Source: a virus. From it: DNA of 26,871 bases. Positions 2 to 14,694 of this stretch are shown piece by piece. Both the position numbers and the translations under genes were made by a program. The stretch is taken from IMG/VR virus record IMGVR_UViG_3300035674_000012, positions 1 through 26,871 of that record; one strand, given 5' to 3'. A model generated the notes under the pieces. The model ran no database searches. It saw only the letters and a program-made list of their open reading frames with translations, and had not been told where the DNA came from. Numbering within the stretch: position 1 is the stretch's first letter; every line of letters begins with the position of its first letter.

Positions 2-403
2 GCCACCGCCGCGCGGCGGCCGGCCACCCGGAAGACAGCCCCGCCGTCGAAGCCGGCCAGCGCCGGCCGGCGGGGGCGGCCCGTCGACACCGACGGGCAG
101 CGGCACCGCGACCTGGTCGCCCGCCGGGTACTGACCGGTGCCATCACGAAGGTGCAGGCCGCGGAGAACGAGGGCAAGTCGGTCCGCTCGATCGAGAAGT
201 GGATCGAGTCGTTCGAGATGCGCGGCGGCACAGCCACCATCGGGCCCGCCGACCCCGAGGTGCAGCCCGTCGACGACGGCGCGCAGGACCCCCTGACCGC
301 CGAGCTCGCAGGCCTGGTCGCCGACCCCGGCATGACCCGCCCCGCCCCCGTCCGCCCCGCAGCCCCGGCCGGGGCCGCCCCCGAAGCCGAGGTGACCCGG
401 TGA
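2..403 (+). CDS. C-terminal part of a helix-turn-helix-like protein (5' end outside window)
   Basis: The frame is open from the left edge to a TGA at 401-403, and no ATG or GTG occurs before a GTG at 152, so the true start lies outside. The visible 133 residues begin with a basic Ala/Pro/Arg linker, then a charged helical segment (GRPVDTDGQRHRDL, then KVQAAENEGKSVRSIEKW) that could form a helix-turn-helix, then an Ala/Pro-rich acidic tail. I do not recognise the family. The stop overlaps the GTG of the translocase gene (GTGA), so the two are translationally coupled and probably co-function, for example as a DNA-binding partner or regulator of transfer. That role is inferred from position only. 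Confidence 0.6.
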   Translation, partial: ATAARRPATRKTAPPSKPASAGRRGRPVDTDGQRHRDLVARRVLTGAITKVQAAENEGKSVRSIEKWIESFEMRGGTATIGPADPEVQPVDDGAQDPLTAELAGLVADPGMTRPAPVRPAAPAGAAPEAEVTR

Positions 404-2745
404 CCAGCCGAAAGACCGACATCACGACCCGCCGCGACCCCGAGTCGAAGACGACCGAGGCCCGGATGCGGCCGTTCACGTCGGTGCTGCTCGCCGGCCT
501 GCTGATCGTCCCGCTGGTGATCCTCGCGCTGCGCCTCTACCAGGTGCCGTTCCCGCACGAGCGGTGGTTCATGACGTGGCTGTCCCTCGTGCTGTTCGGC
601 GTGTTCGGCCCGCTGATCGCGCTCGCCGTCGGGTACAAGGTCGCCGAGCGGCGCCTGCCGTTCGTGGTGTGGCACGTCGCCGCGACCGTGCACCTGTTCG
701 CCGTCGCGATCAGCCTCGGCATGCAGGTCGGGTGGGACCGGCCCGACACCGACCCGTGGTACCTGCGGCTCCGTGACGACGCCGCGGCCCCGGGTAGCCG
801 GGTGTTCATCGCGTACATGATCGGCGCGGCGGCGGTGTGCGGGTCGTGGCTGCTGTACCGGATCAACGCGTTCCGGTCCGCGACGAACTCCGGCGGCGAC
901 GGGTCCGGCGACTCGTGGTCGGAGCTGCTGAAGATGCCGCAGGGCGCGTCGGTGCGGCGCGGGTCGATCGTCGTCGACGACGTCGCCACGCAGGCCGAGA
1001 TCGACCACCCCGGCGTGCCGATCGCCGACCTCCGCGCGAAGCTGCCCGCGCTGGAAGAGGCGGCCGGCGCGATCCGCGGCCGTTCGTCGATCGTCGGAGG
1101 TGAGCGCGGCGGCACCTCGACCGTGCGGATGGTCCACACCGACCCGCACAAGGAGTGGAAGCCGTGGCCCGGCCTGTCCTTCCCCGGGGGGTCGTATTCG
1201 TGGCCGATCCGGACGTCGTACTACAGCGACGGGCAGGTGCAGTGGTACTCGTTCTGCCGTACCCCGAAGGGTTTCCGAAGCGAGCTCTGCCCGGGGTTCC
1301 GTTCGCCGAACGACGTGTTCAAAGGTTCGCAGGGGATGACCGGCGCAGGTAAGTCCGGCGAGGCGGCGATCGAGACGGCCGAGGTGCTGTCGCGAAGGAA
1401 TGTCGTCGTCGCGTACCTCGACCTTGCGAAGCTGCTGCAGAACGCTGGCTGGTGCATGGACTTCCTGACGCTCGCCGTCGGTAACTCGGGGCAGTCGCGG
1501 CTGTTCTGGCGGGGGATGCGGATGCTCGGCGAATACCGTTCGCGGGTCCTCGGCGAACACCGCAACTTCAACGACGAAGCCGCCGAAGCGACGGGGCTGC
1601 CGTGGGTGCACATCTTCGCCGACGAGTTCGACGTCGTGAAGAACTCCGCCGACGTGAAGTGGCTCGCGACGAAGGGCCGGTCGCTCGGGTTCCGACTTTC
1701 GTTCGCGCTGCCCCGCGCCACCGCCGCCGGCATGGACTCCGACGTTCGCGGCGCGGTCGGCATGTGGGCGCAGTTCGGCATCAGCCAGGACTACGACAAG
1801 GGCTTCGTGCTGTCGGCGGAGACGATGGCGGCTGGCGCGAACCCTGAGGCGTTCGGCGCTCGCCTGCCCGGCGTGCACTACCTCGACCAGGCGCCCGGGA
1901 TCCCCGAGCAGCGGTACCCGGTCGACTGCCGCTCGTACGAGACCCACGACGACTACGGGGACCTGCGCCGGGCGGTCGAGGCGGCCCGCGCCACGTTCAC
2001 CCCGGCCACGTTCACCCCCGGCGAGGTCGAGGTGCTGACCAAGGCGGGCGTGTGGCAGGCGTGCCGTCCGTCCGTCGTGCGCGCCGGCCGCCTCGGCATG
2101 GTCGACGACGACGCCCCGGCGGCTGCGGCCCTGCCGGTGCAGCCGCCGGCTCAGGCCGGCGGCGACGGGTTCGACCTCGGCCTGCCCGACGACGAACAGG
2201 CCGCCCTCGCCCGCGCCCGCGGGGCCGAGGCCCGCAACACCGGCGCCCGCCCGGGCGCCGCCAGCCCGAAGGGAACCAGCATGCCCCCTGTCGACTTCGA
2301 CACCGACACCAACGGCCACCACGACACCGGCGACGACGACCTCGACGCCCTCCTCGACGAGTCCCGCCAGCTCGCCGACCTGTCCGAGTTCCGCGACGAG
2401 AACGGGCGGCTGCCCGAGCACGACGACCCGCTGCCGGACTACTCCGACGGCGACATTGACGATTTGCCGACGGGCAAGCCCGAGCCCCGCGACCGCGCCC
2501 ACGCGATCGCCGAGTTCGACGCCGCGCTGATCCGGATGGCGCAGCGCGGCGTGACCCGGTTCCGCAACGCCGATCTGATCGCGGAGATGACGGTCGAGGC
2601 TGACGAGTCGATGATCTCGAAGCGGTTCACGGCGCTGTGCGACGACGAGGCGCTGACGCCGCCGGGGATCGTGATCGAGCGGGAGGGCCGCGGGCAGTTC
2701 CTGCTGACGCGAGTCTCGCCCGACGCGGGCGTGCACGGGGCGTGA
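400..2745 (+). CDS. FtsK/SpoIIIE/TraB-type membrane-anchored DNA translocase
   Basis: This 781-residue protein is a hexameric-type motor ATPase that moves double-stranded DNA through a membrane. Four membrane segments lie at about residues 27-47, 55-77, 84-104 and 130-148. The motor domain carries Walker A (GMTGAGKS, 312-319) and Walker B (hydrophobic run ending D408-E409). After about residue 560 comes an Ala/Gly/Asp-rich linker, and the last 80 residues look like a winged-helix domain, as in the FtsK gamma or TraB C-terminus that reads DNA repeats. The GTG at 400 is chosen because it makes a GTGA overlap with the upstream gene and sits behind GAGGTGA (389-395); a longer open frame to 199 only shadows that gene. 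In actinomycetes, a stand-alone FtsK-like protein of this size with an N-terminal membrane part is the hallmark of conjugative plasmids and AICEs. A role in phage DNA segregation is the alternative. Confidence 0.88.
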   Translation: MTSRKTDITTRRDPESKTTEARMRPFTSVLLAGLLIVPLVILALRLYQVPFPHERWFMTWLSLVLFGVFGPLIALAVGYKVAERRLPFVVWHVAATVHLFAVAISLGMQVGWDRPDTDPWYLRLRDDAAAPGSRVFIAYMIGAAAVCGSWLLYRINAFRSATNSGGDGSGDSWSELLKMPQGASVRRGSIVVDDVATQAEIDHPGVPIADLRAKLPALEEAAGAIRGRSSIVGGERGGTSTVRMVHTDPHKEWKPWPGLSFPGGSYSWPIRTSYYSDGQVQWYSFCRTPKGFRSELCPGFRSPNDVFKGSQGMTGAGKSGEAAIETAEVLSRRNVVVAYLDLAKLLQNAGWCMDFLTLAVGNSGQSRLFWRGMRMLGEYRSRVLGEHRNFNDEAAEATGLPWVHIFADEFDVVKNSADVKWLATKGRSLGFRLSFALPRATAAGMDSDVRGAVGMWAQFGISQDYDKGFVLSAETMAAGANPEAFGARLPGVHYLDQAPGIPEQRYPVDCRSYETHDDYGDLRRAVEAARATFTPATFTPGEVEVLTKAGVWQACRPSVVRAGRLGMVDDDAPAAAALPVQPPAQAGGDGFDLGLPDDEQAALARARGAEARNTGARPGAASPKGTSMPPVDFDTDTNGHHDTGDDDLDALLDESRQLADLSEFRDENGRLPEHDDPLPDYSDGDIDDLPTGKPEPRDRAHAIAEFDAALIRMAQRGVTRFRNADLIAEMTVEADESMISKRFTALCDDEALTPPGIVIEREGRGQFLLTRVSPDAGVHGA

Positions 2746-2758
2746 CGGCCCGGCGTCT

Positions 2759-2937
2759 CCGGAAAGTCGACGCGGGCCGCGCCGAGACTCCGACGGCCGC
2801 GTTACTACAGGTCAGGGGCGATCTTTCCGCCGGAAAGTCGCCTGCAAGTCCCGAAGAAAGATCCGGAAAGTCCGGCTGCAAGAACCTGCGGGGGCCCGGC
2901 AAGCCGCCGCAACTCCACGGCAAGAACCCGGAAAGAT
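2759..2937 (+). repeat. CCGGAAAG iteron-like repeats, possible clt/translocase recognition region
   Basis: The 219-base gap after the translocase gene holds four direct copies of CCGGAAAG, starting at 2759, 2830, 2863 and 2928. The first three extend to CCGGAAAGTC. Spacings are 71, 33 and 65 bases. Copy two is half of an inverted repeat CTTTCC-GCC-GGAAAG (2823-2837). CTGCAAG also occurs twice (2842-2848, 2876-2882). TraB proteins are known to bind short repeats in a clt locus close to traB, so this is a candidate site; an iteron-type replication origin or operator is possible too. Confidence 0.5.
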
Positions 2938-2964
2938 GACCGACGGTAGCGAAAGAAGGAATCC

Positions 2965-3339
2965 ATGCCCACGCTCCCCCCGTCTACAGACAAGGTCCGC
3001 AACGGCGAGTCGATGAACGCCATGGTCCGGGCCACCTCCGCGGCGATCATGGCCGGCCACGACTTCCTCAACAACATGGCGGCCCGGCTGCACCAGGGCA
3101 TCGTGAACAAACTGGTGTCGGAAGGCCTCGACGGGTCCGGCCGGTTCGGTATCGGCTCGGACGCGAAGCGGGCCGCGGACTCCGTCGCCGGGCCGCTGCA
3201 GCGCGCCGCGGACAACCTGAAGGCGGCCGCCGCGCTGATCAACAAGGCGGGCCACAACTTCGACTCGAACGTCGTGCAGCCCGTGACGCGGGCGCGGTAC
3301 GAACGTGAGCACTCCAAGTCCGGCGAGCTCGACTTCTAG
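2965..3339 (+). CDS. Hypothetical helical protein, 124 aa
   Basis: The ATG at 2965 follows a good Shine-Dalgarno (GAAAGAAGGA, 2951-2960). The protein is mostly helical and soluble, with Ala-rich amphipathic stretches in the middle (SDAKRAADSVAGPLQRAADN, residues about 63-82) and no membrane segment or signal peptide. I do not recognise the family. It is the first gene after the CCGGAAAG repeats and directly precedes small membrane-protein genes in the same direction. Small genes behind traB in actinomycete plasmids often encode spread (Spd) proteins, but nothing in this sequence proves such a role. Confidence 0.7.
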   Translation: MPTLPPSTDKVRNGESMNAMVRATSAAIMAGHDFLNNMAARLHQGIVNKLVSEGLDGSGRFGIGSDAKRAADSVAGPLQRAADNLKAAAALINKAGHNFDSNVVQPVTRARYEREHSKSGELDF

Positions 3340-3361: not shown

Positions 3362-3748
3362 ATGCTCACCAGCAGTGCCCGCCGAGCTCGGCGGGCCCGG
3401 GACTTTCAGATCATGCGCGACTCTGCCCTGCGGGAGTACGGGCGGCGCAACCGCGGGCTGATCCTGTTCGGGCCGTTCTTCGGCCGGGTCGGGGCGGTGC
3501 TGCTCGTCGCGGTCGGCTGCTGGTGGGCGTGGGTCGAGGTCGACCGGCAGGTGCTCGCGTCGGTGGTCGGTGGTGTCGGCGCGGTTCTCGCGCTGGTGTA
3601 CGGGCTGCAGGTCGCGGCGGGTGGCGGGCTGCAGGACCGGATGGTGCGGCGGGTGAGCGGCGCGGGGGGTCCGCGGCACGTGGTCGGCGCGGCCGGTGTG
3701 TGCCTGCTGGCCGCGGCGGTCCTGATGGTGTGGGGTGCGCCGTGGTGA
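3362..3748 (+). CDS. Small membrane protein, three transmembrane segments
   Basis: A protein of 128 residues with a basic cytoplasmic N-terminus (about 32 residues, Arg-rich) and three hydrophobic segments at roughly residues 33-58, 63-86 and 106-127. Of two nearby ATGs (3356 and 3362), the second is chosen because GGGAAGGG (3347-3355) would touch the first but sits 6 bases from the second. The same pattern of an SD followed by GATGACCATG recurs before the gene at 8912. The gene shares GTGA with the next one, so it lies in one operon with the pyrophosphohydrolase. The family is unknown; small multi-pass proteins beside TraB are typical of plasmid spread modules, which is only a positional hint. 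Confidence 0.72.
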   Translation: MLTSSARRARRARDFQIMRDSALREYGRRNRGLILFGPFFGRVGAVLLVAVGCWWAWVEVDRQVLASVVGGVGAVLALVYGLQVAAGGGLQDRMVRRVSGAGGPRHVVGAAGVCLLAAAVLMVWGAPW

Positions 3749-4380
3749 CGTTCGCGGGGTTGCTGCGGCTGCACCGGTCGGCGTCGGTCGGGGTGCCGTT
3801 CCTGGTGTGGCTGGCGCCCGACGGGTCGGTGTGGGCGGCGCCGTACGGTACGGCCCCGCCGGTCGGTGGGGTGTTGTCGGCGGAGTGGGTGTGCCTCGAC
3901 GATGAAGCGCCCGTGCGTGAGCGGCCCCCCGCGGGGCCGGACGTGCACGCGTTCGTGCCCGGGGCGGTGGCGAAGGATGCGTGCCAGGGCCCGGATCCGT
4001 GGCGGTTCGGGGACCGCTGCTACCTGCCTGAGGCGCACCCGGTCCACCGGCCGCAGTCGATCGACGCCGCGCACCTCGCCCGGCAGCGCGCGTTCTCCGA
4101 GCGCACGTTCGGGCCGGGTCTGCGTACCGAGGGCATCATCGACCACATCAGGAAAGAGCTGAGGGAGATCTCCGCCGACCCCACGGACGTCGAGGAATGG
4201 GTCGACGTCGTGATCCTCGCCTTCGACGGGGCGTGGCGCGCCGGGCATGAGCCGCAGGCCATCATCGACGCGATCGCCGCGAAGCAAGCCCGCAACGAGG
4301 CGCGGACGTGGCCCGACTGGCGAACCGCCGACCCCGGCCGCGCGATCGAGCACGTCCGCGACGCGGGCGGTGCGCGGTGA
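3745..4380 (+). CDS. DUF550/MazG-like dATP/dGTP pyrophosphohydrolase
   Basis: This 211-residue protein probably hydrolyses dNTPs to dNMP plus pyrophosphate. Its C-terminal half (about residues 105-208) matches the DUF550 family (Pfam 'dATP/dGTP pyrophosphohydrolase, N-terminal'), an all-alpha MazG-type fold. E138 and E141 in KELREI, and E151 and D154 in EEWVDVV, are the expected metal ligands. They are followed by the family signatures DGAWRAGH and AKQARNEARTWPDW. The first 100 residues are a separate, unrecognised region with aromatic, proline-rich sequence. GTG 3745 gives a GTGA overlap with the previous stop. Such enzymes occur in phages, where they trim nucleotide pools; the cyanophage S-2L MazZ relative serves 2-aminoadenine DNA synthesis. 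No PurZ or DatZ partner is seen here, so base modification is not implied. Confidence 0.85.
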   Translation: MTFAGLLRLHRSASVGVPFLVWLAPDGSVWAAPYGTAPPVGGVLSAEWVCLDDEAPVRERPPAGPDVHAFVPGAVAKDACQGPDPWRFGDRCYLPEAHPVHRPQSIDAAHLARQRAFSERTFGPGLRTEGIIDHIRKELREISADPTDVEEWVDVVILAFDGAWRAGHEPQAIIDAIAAKQARNEARTWPDWRTADPGRAIEHVRDAGGAR

Positions 4381-10198: not shown

Positions 10199-10681
10199 AT
10201 GGCCAGCGCCCCCGGGTGGACTCGCCCGATCGTCTACTACTTCGTCGCCCGGTTCTCCCGCAACGCGGAGCTGCGCGGCTACCGCGACCGGCTGCACGCC
10301 GCCCACGCCGGGGCGAAGGTGTCGGCCCGGTGGATCGACGCCACCGCCGACCCCGACCCGTGCGTCGGTGAACGCCTGAACGCCGACCCCGCCCGTGCGT
10401 GGGAGTTCGCCCGCGCCGACCTCGCGGACATCAGCGGCGCCGACGTGTTCGTGCAGTTCACGGAGACCCCCGACGCCCCGACGGGGTTCCCGTCGATGGG
10501 TGGCCGGCACGTCGAGTTCGGGTACGCCATCGCCCTGCACGAAGAGGAGTTCGGGCTGCCCGGGACGCGGATCCGGCTGGTGATCGTGGGGCCGCGGGAG
10601 AACGTGTTCCACGCCCACCCGGCGGTCGAGGTGTTCGCGGACTTCGACGCGTTCCTCGCGCACGAGAGGACAGACCGATGA
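10199..10681 (+). CDS. Nucleoside 2-deoxyribosyltransferase-like protein
   Basis: A protein of 160 residues with a Rossmann-like N-deoxyribosyltransferase fold. The N-terminal strand YYFVARFSRNAEL (13-25) resembles the substrate loop, WEFARADLADISGADVFV (68-85) holds the conserved Asp of the family (D82), and GGRHVEFGYAIAL (101-113) carries the nucleophile-position Glu106. A VGPRENVFH motif and a final strand follow. The family either exchanges bases on 2'-deoxynucleosides or hydrolyses deoxynucleotides; this phage-type branch has no proven substrate. ATG 10199 is chosen because GGGAAGGA (10183-10190) lies properly before it; ATG 10190 overlaps that site. Together with the DUF550 enzyme, it suggests management of deoxynucleotide pools. 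Confidence 0.75.
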   Translation: MASAPGWTRPIVYYFVARFSRNAELRGYRDRLHAAHAGAKVSARWIDATADPDPCVGERLNADPARAWEFARADLADISGADVFVQFTETPDAPTGFPSMGGRHVEFGYAIALHEEEFGLPGTRIRLVIVGPRENVFHAHPAVEVFADFDAFLAHERTDR

Positions 10682-11037
10682 CCGAAGTGACCGACGAGAT
10701 GGTCGAGGCGTTCGGCGCGGCCTGGCACACCGCCGACGCCGAACTCGACGGCGGGCCGTCCACCGACGGATACCGGCGCAGGGCGGGGATCGCCGCGGTC
10801 CTCGCGATCGTCGACCGGGACGCCGCCGCCCGAGCGCAACGCGCCGCCGGCCGGCCAGTATTCCGCGACGGCGACGGCGACCCGTGGTGGCTCACCAACT
10901 ACGGCCGCTACGTGTTCGCGTCCTCGCAGGAAGCCGCAGAGGCACAGGTGGAGGCGGCGCTGCGCACACGGTCCCTCGACTTCATCGGGTTCGCCACGGT
11001 CGACGATGTCCGAGCCAAGTACGGAGAGATGGACTGA
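10678..11037 (+). CDS. Phage-type hypothetical protein, 119 aa
   Basis: ATG 10678 overlaps the previous stop (ATGA). The N-terminal half has the pattern TDEMVEAFGAAWHTAD, then TDGYRRRAGIAAVLAIVDRD, frequent in actinophage early proteins of unknown function. The C-terminal half (DGDPWWLTNYGRYVFASS, then a helix and LDFIGFATVDDV) looks like a separate alpha/beta unit. No catalytic motif is visible. It joins the next gene by TGATG. Confidence 0.65.
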   Translation: MTEVTDEMVEAFGAAWHTADAELDGGPSTDGYRRRAGIAAVLAIVDRDAAARAQRAAGRPVFRDGDGDPWWLTNYGRYVFASSQEAAEAQVEAALRTRSLDFIGFATVDDVRAKYGEMD

Positions 11038-11249
11038 TGCCCGACGCGCAGGGGCGCCTCACCGTCGCCGACGTCGCCGCCGAGTTCGGCATCGAACCGT
11101 CCGACTGGCGCGCCCGGGTGTCCCGCGGTCACGCCCCGAAACCCGACGGGTACGACGTCATCGACGGCGCACCCCGCGCCTTTTACCTGCCTGCCACTAT
11201 CGAGCCGTATCGGCGTGCCCGCGCCGAACGGACCCGGCCGGCGCAGTAG
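11037..11249 (+). CDS. Small MerR/excisionase-like DNA-binding protein
   Basis: A 70-residue protein starting at ATG 11037 (TGATG). LTVADVAAEFGIEPSDWRAR (8-27) resembles a winged-helix turn of the MerR/AlpA/Xis type, followed by a wing-like GYDVIDGAPRAFYL and a basic helix (EPYRRARAERTR). Small proteins of this kind act as excisionases or regulators. No integrase or attachment site is seen nearby, so an excisionase role is only a guess. It is the last gene before the bidirectional-looking terminator. Confidence 0.6.
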   Translation: MPDAQGRLTVADVAAEFGIEPSDWRARVSRGHAPKPDGYDVIDGAPRAFYLPATIEPYRRARAERTRPAQ

Positions 11250-11263
11250 CCCCGACGCACGAC

Positions 11264-11293
11264 GCGGCCCCCGGCGGAGATGCCGGGGGCCGC
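11264..11293. terminator. Convergent terminator hairpin
   Basis: GCGGCCCCCGGC (11264-11275) and GCCGGGGGCCGC (11282-11293) form a perfect 12-bp stem with a GGAGAT loop. ACGCA (11255-11259) and TGCGT (11294-11298) could extend it with a four-base bulge. It lies between the rightward operon end (11249) and the leftward operon end (11309), so it can stop both transcripts. On the plus strand it is followed by TGCGTTGTT. Confidence 0.8.
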
Positions 11294-11308
11294 TGCGTTG
11301 TTCCGGGG

Positions 11309-11542
11309 TCAGGCGGTCCGCTTGAACCGGGGCAGAACCTTCGACGTGATCAGACCCGCCACGTACCCCGCCGCCGGGGCCGCGATCGTCGCGAAGAACG
11401 TCGGCAGCGTCGAGAAGTCGATCGTCCCCAGCCACTCCACCACCGCCAGACCGGCCACCGTCACGACGCCGTTCACGGTGTTACCGACCAGGCTGTCGAA
11501 GCCGAGGAACCCCCGGCCGTCCTTCCTCTCCGGATTCGTCAT
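11309..11542 (-). CDS. Holin-like membrane protein
   Basis: A 77-residue protein, last gene of the leftward late operon. After a polar start (about 22 residues) there are two hydrophobic segments at about 23-40 (NTVNGVVTVAGLAVVEWL) and 47-68 (TFFATIAAPAAGYVAGLIT), then a basic tail (KVLPRFKRTA). Size, topology, basic end and position after the tail fibre genes fit an actinophage holin that opens the membrane at lysis. The start is ATG 11542 behind AAGGAAG. A structural or unrelated membrane role cannot be excluded. No lysin gene is next to it. Confidence 0.6.
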   Translation of the reverse strand: MTNPERKDGRGFLGFDSLVGNTVNGVVTVAGLAVVEWLGTIDFSTLPTFFATIAAPAAGYVAGLITSKVLPRFKRTA

Positions 11543-11633
11543 CGCTGCACTTCCTTCGATGTGGGCCGCCCCGCGGGCGGGATCACCGTCATTGTGGACC
11601 GGGCCGCCCCAGCGCGCCAGACACGCCGCCCCT

Positions 11634-12074
11634 TCACCGGCCGGCGGCGTCCTGCTGCGCGACGTGGTTCGCGACCGCCGCCTGATACAGCCGGCGCAGC
11701 GCCGCCAGCTCCGCCCGGGAAATCCCCCGCCTCTTCATCATCCGCGCGCACGCCCGGTACTCGTCGAGGGCGGCCGGGTCCGCCCATCCCTGCGGGCCGG
11801 GGATCGACGCCAGCGCCGCCAGGTCGGGGTCCTCCTCCGGCGCGAGGACCCACTGCAGCGCCGTCCCCGACGTCACGCGCAGGTAGCCGTAGGCGCTGAC
11901 GACGTTGTCGGCGTACCGGAAGATCAGCACGTCGGGCCGGCCGTCGTCGGGCAGCAGCGCGGCCTGCTCCGCCGGCACCCCGATCGTCAGCTTGTCGTAC
12001 TTCAGCATCGGCTCGGGGGTGCGGTCGTCGGCCACGAGGGTGATCGCGGTCAGGTCTCCAAGGTCGATCGGCAT
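11634..12074 (-). CDS. Tail-module hypothetical protein, 146 aa
   Basis: ATG 12074 is behind GGAGAGGGGCGGC. The N-terminal part is beta-rich (PIDLGDLTAITLVADDRTP, then LTIGVPAEQAALL, then VLIFRYADNVVSAYGYLRV), and the C-terminal part is two charged helices (LDEYRACARMMKRRGISRAE, then a helix to the end). Its place 16 bases after the fibre gene and before the holin-like gene suggests a minor tail or tail-chaperone role. The family is not recognised. A 91-base gap with only a short GC-rich inverted repeat (11567-11581) separates it from the holin-like gene. Confidence 0.65.
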   Translation of the reverse strand: MPIDLGDLTAITLVADDRTPEPMLKYDKLTIGVPAEQAALLPDDGRPDVLIFRYADNVVSAYGYLRVTSGTALQWVLAPEEDPDLAALASIPGPQGWADPAALDEYRACARMMKRRGISRAELAALRRLYQAAVANHVAQQDAAGR

Positions 12075-12090
12075 CCGCCGCCCCTCTCCG

Positions 12091-14694
12091 TCACTCCGTC
12101 CACGGCCCGGTCACGGCGGTGCCGTTCGCGCCGGCCGCCGTCCACCGGTACTGGTAGGGCAGGTCGCCCGCCACCCCCCAATCGTCGACGCTGCCGGCCG
12201 GTGACACCGCGGCCGCGACGGGCACGCCGGTGTCGGGGTCGTAGACGCCGAACCACAGCTCGTCGACGTGGGCGGTGTCGGTGATCGCCGCGGTGCCGGT
12301 CAGCCCGATGGACAGGCCGACCCGGACGGCGCCCGGCGCGTCGGCGGGGTTCCCCACCACGTCGATGTAGACCCACGCCCCGGCGACCGGCGCCGGGTAC
12401 GTGGCGACGGTCGCGGCGATGAACGTGCCGGCGGCGTCGTAGAACGGCACCCGCACCCGCAGCGACTTGTTGCCCGTCGTCGGGCGGATCCACCCACCGG
12501 CGTAGAACAGCGACCCCGCGGCGATCAGCGCGGACACGTCCGGCTTCAGGTCGGAGAACAGCAGGCTGTCGAGGTTCGAGCCGTTCGGGGTGATCAGCGC
12601 CGACCCGGGCGCGCTGCGGAACTGCGCCGTCGAGTACGCGCTGCTGCCGCCCTGCGTCGACCAGCCCCCGATCCCGCCGTCCATGGCCGGGTTCGCGGCC
12701 ATGTTGAGCGTGGTCCGGATCCGCCGGTACAGGGCGAGGGACGTGATTGCCGGCTGCGCCCCGACCGGCGCCGCCGCCGCCGCCGCGACGGTGATCCACC
12801 CCTTCGCCGCGTTGACCGTGAACGTCGGTGTCGGCGGCGGCGGCGGCGCGTACGACACGGTGAACGAGTGGGTGTCGGCGTTCGACGTCAACCCCTCGTT
12901 GTTCTTCGTGGTGACCTCGACCTGCCAGGCGGTGCCGTTGTCGAGGGTGTACGGGACGGTGTACGTCTTCGTGGTGTCGGCTTGGAAGCCGCTGTCGTGG
13001 CGCTGCGTCCCGCCGGAGGTGAGGAGCCGCACCCGCCGCTGCGTCTGCTCGGTGGCGGTCCACGTGACGGTGACGCGTTCGGTGTTGACGACACCGCCGG
13101 GGGTCGGCGAGGTGATCGCCGGGTCGACCTTCGTCGACGGGATCAGCGTCAGCCCGTTGGAGTAGTCCGCCGACGGGGTGTTCGCCGAGTCCCATACGCG
13201 GACCTTCCACGTGTACGCGGCGTCGGTGCCGGCCGCCCACCCGGCGGCGAACGTCACCTGCGTACTCGACCCGGCGTTCTGCTGCTCCGTCGCCTGCCAC
13301 GTGCTGTCGGACGACCGCCAGTATTGGACGGTGCCCGCCCCGATCTGCCGGGACAGCGCCCACGACGACTGCGTGTCGCCCGGGTCGGGGTCGGAGAACG
13401 ACCAGTCGAGGGTGAGCGCGGCGCCGACGTCGGCGGCGCCGCCATGGGTGTACGGCTGCGTCGACGTCACCCACTGCGGGGTGTTCGGCGTGGAGCTGCC
13501 GGTCTGCCCGGTGTGCGCGACCGTGTTCGGGGAACCGGCGTGCGCGGTGACGACGTCGTGGCGGGCGTTGCCGAACGTGCCGCCGTGCCGCACCCCGAAC
13601 TCGACGCCGCCGGTGCCGAGGACCGCGGTCGGTGACACCTGCGCCCACGCACCCCACGTCGCCGTCTGCCGCACGTAGTCCACGAAGTACAGGTGCGTCG
13701 TGCTGGTGCCGGTCGCGAACACCCGCAGGTTCTTCGTCGTGTAGTCGTAGCTGAGGGCGATGTTCCGCACGTTCCCCGCGGGGTGCGCGGGCGGCGCCGG
13801 CAGCAGCGTCGTCTTCGTGTTCGCCTGGTTCCGCTCCCGGACCTCGACCTCGGTCAGGTCGTTCGGGTCGATCGACGCGGTGATCCACCGGACGCCGTCC
13901 CAGCGGGCCGGCCGGTCGTCCTGCGCGGCGGCGCTGAGCTTCAGGAACACGCCGGTCGACGGGCCGGTCCACCCGAGGGTCGACTGCGACCAGATCAGCT
14001 TCACCATGGCGATGTCGATGCGGCCCCACGACACCCACAGATTCGGGACGTTCGCGGACGTGTCACCGGTGCCGTTGTGCTCCGTCTCGCACGACACCCC
14101 GAACCGGCCAGGCGTGACGCCGTGGATCCAATACTCCCGGGTGCCGGCGACCAGGCCGTTCTTGCGGCTGACCGCCCCACCCGGCGTGATCGTCACACCC
14201 ATGATCTGGATGCCGTACCGCGGGTAGCTGCTCTGCGTCCGGCACCCGACGACCGCGATCGAGTACGAGGCGTCCGGGTTGCGGACCACCGCCATGTCGA
14301 CGCCCTGCCACACCGAGCCGGGGCTGCCGCCGTTGCCGTCGGTCTCCGACAACTGCAGCCCCCCGGACCACGTCGGCGACGCCGCCGACGTCGACACCCG
14401 CCGGTACCAGATCGTGTCCGACGACGTGTCCGACACCCGGTACGCCAGGTGCGCCCACCCGTTCTTGTCGACGATGAAGCTCGACCACTCGGCGACGCTG
14501 CCCAGGTTGGTGTGCGTGAACGCCGCGTACGACGCCCACGACCCGCCGCTGTCGGTCGAGCGGTACACGGTCAGGGTCGACGCGCCGGTGCGGACGATGA
14601 CGAACAGGTTGCCGTTCGACGCGTCCCGGCCGATGGGCGCGTTCGACGGCATCGCCAGCGGGTCCGCCTGCGTGGTCGTGGTCACGGTCGCCAC
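12091..14694 (-). CDS. Tail fibre / receptor-binding protein with sialidase-like, Ig-like and carbohydrate-binding parts
   Basis: An 867-residue protein starting at GTG 14694 behind AAAGGGG. Residues 1 to about 390 look like a sialidase-type beta-propeller: there is a good Asp-box STDSGGSW (46-53) and repeated weaker blades. About 400-600 are two Ig/fibronectin-like domains (Pro/Thr-rich, TSPTPGGVVNTERVTVTWTA). A linker with PPPPPTP follows. The C-terminal about 190 residues, from NMAANPAMDGGIGGW onward, resemble a carbohydrate-binding beta-sandwich. This is the usual layout for a tail fibre that recognises surface glycans. Catalytic sialidase residues are not evident, so binding is likelier than cleavage. 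Confidence 0.75.
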   Translation of the reverse strand: MATVTTTTQADPLAMPSNAPIGRDASNGNLFVIVRTGASTLTVYRSTDSGGSWASYAAFTHTNLGSVAEWSSFIVDKNGWAHLAYRVSDTSSDTIWYRRVSTSAASPTWSGGLQLSETDGNGGSPGSVWQGVDMAVVRNPDASYSIAVVGCRTQSSYPRYGIQIMGVTITPGGAVSRKNGLVAGTREYWIHGVTPGRFGVSCETEHNGTGDTSANVPNLWVSWGRIDIAMVKLIWSQSTLGWTGPSTGVFLKLSAAAQDDRPARWDGVRWITASIDPNDLTEVEVRERNQANTKTTLLPAPPAHPAGNVRNIALSYDYTTKNLRVFATGTSTTHLYFVDYVRQTATWGAWAQVSPTAVLGTGGVEFGVRHGGTFGNARHDVVTAHAGSPNTVAHTGQTGSSTPNTPQWVTSTQPYTHGGAADVGAALTLDWSFSDPDPGDTQSSWALSRQIGAGTVQYWRSSDSTWQATEQQNAGSSTQVTFAAGWAAGTDAAYTWKVRVWDSANTPSADYSNGLTLIPSTKVDPAITSPTPGGVVNTERVTVTWTATEQTQRRVRLLTSGGTQRHDSGFQADTTKTYTVPYTLDNGTAWQVEVTTKNNEGLTSNADTHSFTVSYAPPPPPTPTFTVNAAKGWITVAAAAAAPVGAQPAITSLALYRRIRTTLNMAANPAMDGGIGGWSTQGGSSAYSTAQFRSAPGSALITPNGSNLDSLLFSDLKPDVSALIAAGSLFYAGGWIRPTTGNKSLRVRVPFYDAAGTFIAATVATYPAPVAGAWVYIDVVGNPADAPGAVRVGLSIGLTGTAAITDTAHVDELWFGVYDPDTGVPVAAAVSPAGSVDDWGVAGDLPYQYRWTAAGANGTAVTGPWTE

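Follow-up and report, generated by a model that had tools for sequence, protein, structure and literature searches.

What does a phage do with a stretch of 219 nt that contains no gene, is filled with short repeats and lies directly behind a gene for a DNA translocase? The stretch belongs to the window, i.e., the whole IMG/VR virus record IMGVR_UViG_3300035674_000012 (26,871 b, 72% G+C). The second half of the record holds tape measure, major head, head-tail adaptor and tail genes; judged by this gene content, the record is a fragment of a tailed phage. Homologues of the tape measure come mostly from phages of Mycobacterium, Gordonia and further actinobacteria, which makes an actinobacterium the probable host here as well. 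No ParA-type AAA_31 protein, tyrosine integrase or serine recombinase was seen in the seven phage records, which are possibly fragments. Elsewhere in the window, positions 3742-4377 encode a dATP/dGTP pyrophosphohydrolase domain (PF04447, E 2e-26) in the plus-strand module shared with the transfer genes, and the ORF at 5798-7057 matches globin (PF00042) with 22.1 bits and E 2e-4, a match that barely reaches the Pfam threshold and may be due to chance.

The translocase and its neighbors

The product of the gene in front of the gap matches the NCBIfam family NF041214 (plasmid_TraB) with an E-value of 3e-50 and 171 bits. Because the curated cut-off is 800, the protein is a distant relative rather than an equivalog of that family. 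The plasmid TraB match extends into the C-terminal part. In tblastn searches, the translocase matched 44 actinobacterial plasmids, including TraB (H25) of pWTY27, and found no relative among named phages. Walker A lies at residues ~312-320 and Walker B ends in DE at residues 408-409, positions taken from the invariant columns of the translocase alignment, which contain GxTxxGKSG and DExD. The wider features of TraB-type proteins are also present: an FtsK-like ATPase, a C-terminal winged helix, and N-terminal membrane helices that appear in a low-confidence full-length model only. With a pLDDT of 52, the full-length model serves for rough topology only.

The first-pass annotation had called the end of the translocase winged-helix-like, and structure prediction bears this out. 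AlphaFold2 predicts a winged helix for the last 92 residues (pLDDT 85.4, pTM 0.76), with the order helix-strand-helix-helix-strand-strand. Comparison with PDB folds returned many winged-helix proteins at Z-scores of 5-7.6; these are not specific to FtsK, and the FtsK gamma domain is absent among the fold matches listed.

The translocase gene is flanked by two further genes of interest. The small gene behind the gap is weakly TraA-like, and comparable small genes lie behind the translocase in most relatives. The gene upstream is truncated by the end of the record; its full-length counterpart in the related phage contig G004 has DUF2637 together with GIY-YIG-like and HTH_23-like segments, whose scores do not reach the respective cut-offs. 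Near its transfer module, G004 also encodes a Mom-like DNA modification protein (L098:6959-7561; phrog_1384, E 5e-47).

The repeat array in the gap

The gap comprises positions 2746-2964. It had been described as free of genes, and the coding-frame GC signal does fade there. The first-pass annotation had further reported four copies of CCGGAAAG at spacings of 71, 33 and 65, one of them inside a CTTTCC-GCC-GGAAAG inverted repeat, and each of these details was confirmed (Table 1). All four copies are on the plus strand, and CCGGAAAG occurs nowhere outside the gap in the 26,871 b, on either strand. In dinucleotide-shuffled versions of the window, the mean count of CCGGAAAG was 0.49 and the maximum was 3; four copies were never reached. 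Among all 7-mers and 8-mers of the window, those in the gap formed the tightest cluster (CGGAAAG five times, CCGGAAAG four times), and a cluster as tight was found in 0 of 150 window shuffles.

Table 1. Features of the translocase locus, in window coordinates
Feature	Position	Strand	Basis
Upstream gene, 3' end; HTH-like segment; truncated by record end	2..403	+	
TraB/FtsK-like membrane DNA translocase, 781 aa, GTG start	400..2745	+	NF041214, tblastn, six phage relatives
Predicted C-terminal winged-helix domain, 92 aa	2467..2742	+	AlphaFold2; PDB fold matches
Putative recognition helix within the winged-helix domain	~ESMISKRFTALC		
Probable clt-like element, non-coding repeat array	2746..2964	+	repeat scans, shuffles, G004 comparison
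CCGGAAAG, copy 1	2759..2766	+	
AGGTCAGGGGCGATC, degenerate, where relatives have CCTA[AG]G core	2809..2823	+	inference
Inverted repeat CTTTCC-GCC-GGAAAG	2823..2837	.	sequence; G004 comparison
CCGGAAAG, copy 2 (right arm of inverted repeat)	2830..2837	+	
Variant repeat TGCAAG, motif as in G003 and L095	2843..2848	+	
Degenerate repeat GAAAG	2856..2860	+	
CCGGAAAG, copy 3	2863..2870	+	
Variant repeat TGCAAG	2877..2882	+	
Variant repeat GGCAAG	2898..2903	+	
Variant repeat GGCAAG	2919..2924	+	
CCGGAAAG, copy 4	2928..2935	+	
Degenerate repeat GAAAG, adjoins next gene's start	2951..2955	+	
Conserved small gene adjoining translocase, weakly TraA-like	2965..3339	+	NF041213, E 0.0032, below cut-off

The repeat is more variable than CCGGAAAG alone shows, and the array is bigger than first noted: counted as G[A/C]AAG, the plus strand of the gap has ten sites, and there is one inverted site (CTTTCC). 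From the second site onward, the sites are spaced at 11, 12, 10, 12, 21, 21, 11 and 20. The best period over all ten is 10.6 bp, about one helical turn (p 0.0005, calculated post hoc), and with this spacing the sites would face one side of the helix. The only terminator-like signal was weak and on the minus strand, which is at chance level.

Related phages and plasmids

The major head protein and, after it, protein alignments led to relatives of the phage, earlier protein scans of viral and genome contigs having been empty. Six related phage contigs carry the translocase, at 30-56% identity, and in each of them a repeat-rich stretch of ~200-260 nt adjoins it. The array lies behind the translocase gene in the window, G004 (GGAAAG) and G001 (TGCAA), and in front of it in G003, L094, L095 and L194 (TGCAAG or TGCAA). 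In these four, the gene behind the translocase follows without a gap; the front position in these genomes indicates that the array accompanies the translocase rather than any one gene downstream.

The array is conserved in G004, whose translocase is 56% identical. Its gap keeps five forward copies and one inverted copy of GGAAAG (6 of the 16 in G004), with an inverted repeat, CTTTCC-GCCC-GGAAAG, at the place that matches the one in the window; the two gaps align at 65%, repeats opposite repeats. The first-pass annotation had named an equal octamer density elsewhere in the element, or a lack of conservation among relatives, as grounds to drop its reading; on both points the outcome favors that reading. 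In G001 (47% translocase identity), a gap of similar size has TGCAA/CGCAAA repeats. The arrays of L094 and L194 have few copies, which counts against reading such arrays as clt loci. Across 854 kb of related-phage loci, mostly from the structural region and for the most part showing no translocase, the densest comparable cluster has 4 sites per 220 nt, versus 9 in the window. Of 82 stretches that matched CTTTCCGCC(N)GGAAAG among viral contigs, only that of G004 formed an array next to a translocase. The five GGAAAG/CTTTCC of L136 were rejected as an array, L136 being a purine-rich coding stretch of an unrelated element. Two further clusters were observed: G003 has its genome's strongest one distant from the translocase (G003:C1:60924-61088, L107; seven AGGGGTGG(ACA) copies in ~165 nt), and G004 has a second one (G004:C1:18571-18694, L096; four AGTCACAC in ~125 nt).

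The first-pass annotation had assumed that, in TraB systems, the recognised DNA sits close to traB. Thirteen actinobacterial plasmids with a translocase of this kind, in each of which we inspected the gap behind it, agree with this. Repeat arrays of the TGACACC, GCGCACC or GCACAC type occupy the gap in 11 of the 13, the proven pWTY27 clt included; those of L197, L198 and L204 are visible in the gap sequence and are not among the top clusters of their loci. In the other two, L203 and L207, the cluster lies one small gene further on, and that of L203 consists of CCGCACA, known from the published clt of pJV1. The conjugative plasmid pWTY27 (L199) also has an annotated phage major capsid protein gene at 10642-12102.

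The type of repeat goes with the putative recognition helix of the translocase. Both GGAAAG phages (the window and G004) have ISKRF, the TGCAA(G) phages have SRRL or SRWL, and the TGACACC plasmids have [S/G/T]-R-x-W. This pairing fits a translocase that reads the repeats directly, and kinship alone could yield it. The confounding with kinship, together with the co-variation of the upstream HTH protein, counts against the clt reading.

A further element may be shared between arrays. A CCTA[AG] core lies inside those of plasmids L199, L202, L204 and L208 and of phages G004, G003, L094, L095 and L194, i.e., in 9 of 18 gaps versus 4.7% of background windows, a motif chosen after looking. For this reason, and because the window has no exact copy, we treat the core as a lead only; it is possibly part of clt function. 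That CCTA[AG]G is not intact in the window counts against the clt reading. For a second block, CGTAG/CTACG close to the start codon that follows, the excess over background was not clear.

Possible roles of the array and known systems

Taken together, the array, the fact that it is conserved next to the translocase, the TraB-like domains and the layout shared with a proven plasmid clt lead us to regard the gap as probably a clt-like docking site for the phage's TraB-like translocase. Several translocase monomers would sit on one face of the DNA, their C-terminal winged helices bound to the direct G[A/C]AAG(T)(C) repeats. A membrane hexamer would then assemble at the array and, in the manner of plasmid TraB, would pump double-stranded phage DNA into an adjacent cell or compartment of the hypha. 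We infer the binding of repeats by the winged helix, the formation of the hexamer and the transfer of phage DNA as the steps of this model; the phage might also put the pump to another use, e.g., intramycelial spread or segregation. The weakness of the TraA match of the gene at 2965 counts against the clt reading, as does helical phasing, which is significant in the window only and not in the arrays of relatives.

The strongest rival is an operator or promoter, at which the upstream HTH protein, or some other regulator, would bind to the repeats so as to control the transfer operon. In the window and in several relatives, the gene just before the translocase ends in HTH-like segments, the array always precedes some start codon, and its last copy reaches the ribosome-binding region; the front position in four relatives would suit an operator too and, to that extent, counts against a clt. 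However, the array keeps to the translocase rather than standing in front of one constant gene, and ten phased sites over ~200 bp are large for an operator. A scan of the array for sigma-70-like promoters, which covers actinobacterial promoters poorly, found none, and in pWTY27, it is the translocase itself that binds the corresponding place (PMC3583192). We consider an operator unlikely.

The first-pass annotation had proposed a candidate clt or origin; the clt half of that proposal fits, and the origin half is without positive support. An origin of replication of the iteron type, recognised by a phage initiator, would explain why phased direct repeats next to an inverted repeat look like iterons here. 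Against it, the phage-type replication proteins of G004 (DnaB-like helicase, beta clamp) are encoded ~20 kb from the array, no such array was found in the 854 kb of related-phage loci described above, and the array stays with the translocase gene, all of which makes an origin highly improbable. We give almost no credence to an mRNA leader of the gene at 2965, made of purine-rich, ribosome-binding-like repeats or structured RNA: the last repeats do merge into the Shine-Dalgarno region, but the array has no Rfam match up to E = 1, its 15-bp inverted repeat and one-turn spacing suggest a double-stranded DNA target, and in four relatives, it precedes a different gene. For all of these rivals, positive evidence is confined to position and repeat structure.

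If the gap is such a docking site, DNA transfer from cell to cell may be a further way for some phages to spread. We put forward, as a tentative extension, that a group of tailed phages, probably actinobacterial, has a working TraB/clt module that would pass the double-stranded DNA genome between mycelial cells by single-protein conjugation, besides virions, and that its own docking repeats (GGAAAG/TGCAAG) would have changed along with the recognition helix and switched gene side. If true, some phages would have a second, non-lytic route from cell to cell, with an effect on gene spread in soil actinobacteria. In addition, the 20 plasmid and phage loci with their recognition helices form a natural data set on how TraB-type pumps read docking sites, which has so far been studied in a handful of plasmids.

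Several known systems resemble parts of this arrangement. KOPS and SRS, which guide FtsK and SpoIIIE, are short oriented octamers read by the C-terminal winged helix of a hexameric double-stranded DNA pump. KOPS are spread and oriented genome-wide; by contrast, the CCGGAAAG copies of the window all lie in one 219-nt locus of the 26.9-kb record. The plasmid-phage pZL12 (NC_013420) is reported to combine phage genes and conjugal transfer in one element, as we propose here. Unlike the window with its TraB-like translocase, pZL12 is annotated with a Tra3-like gene, ParA and ParB, it gave no tblastn match with the window translocase or with pWTY27 TraB, and the sources consulted describe no clt for it. 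Loci of the clt kind and one conjugative plasmid-phage are known, and a TraB/clt module in tailed phages appears to be unreported, no report having been found in the open-licence literature.

The clt loci of pIJ101, pJV1 and pSVH1 are small cis sites with direct repeats that a TraB-type translocase recognises, as we propose for the array of the window; they differ in being on plasmids and in their repeats, e.g., CCGCACA[C/G][C/G] in pJV1 (PMC3583192). For pSVH1, recognition by the winged helix is credited to Vogelmann 2011, as cited in PMC3583192. The clt of pWTY27 (NC_013667.2) spans the last 16 bp of the gene and the following 159 bp, contains four TGACACC repeats and was proven by transfer assay, gel shift and translocase footprint (PMC3583192). 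It differs from the array of the window in repeat sequence (TGACACC versus GGAAAG/TGCAAG), in the first 16 bp lying inside the gene and in its location on a 14-kb plasmid rather than in a phage. In both cases, several short direct repeats and inverted repeats (over ~175 bp in pWTY27) make up a non-coding stretch directly behind a TraB-like gene, and the two genes are homologous.
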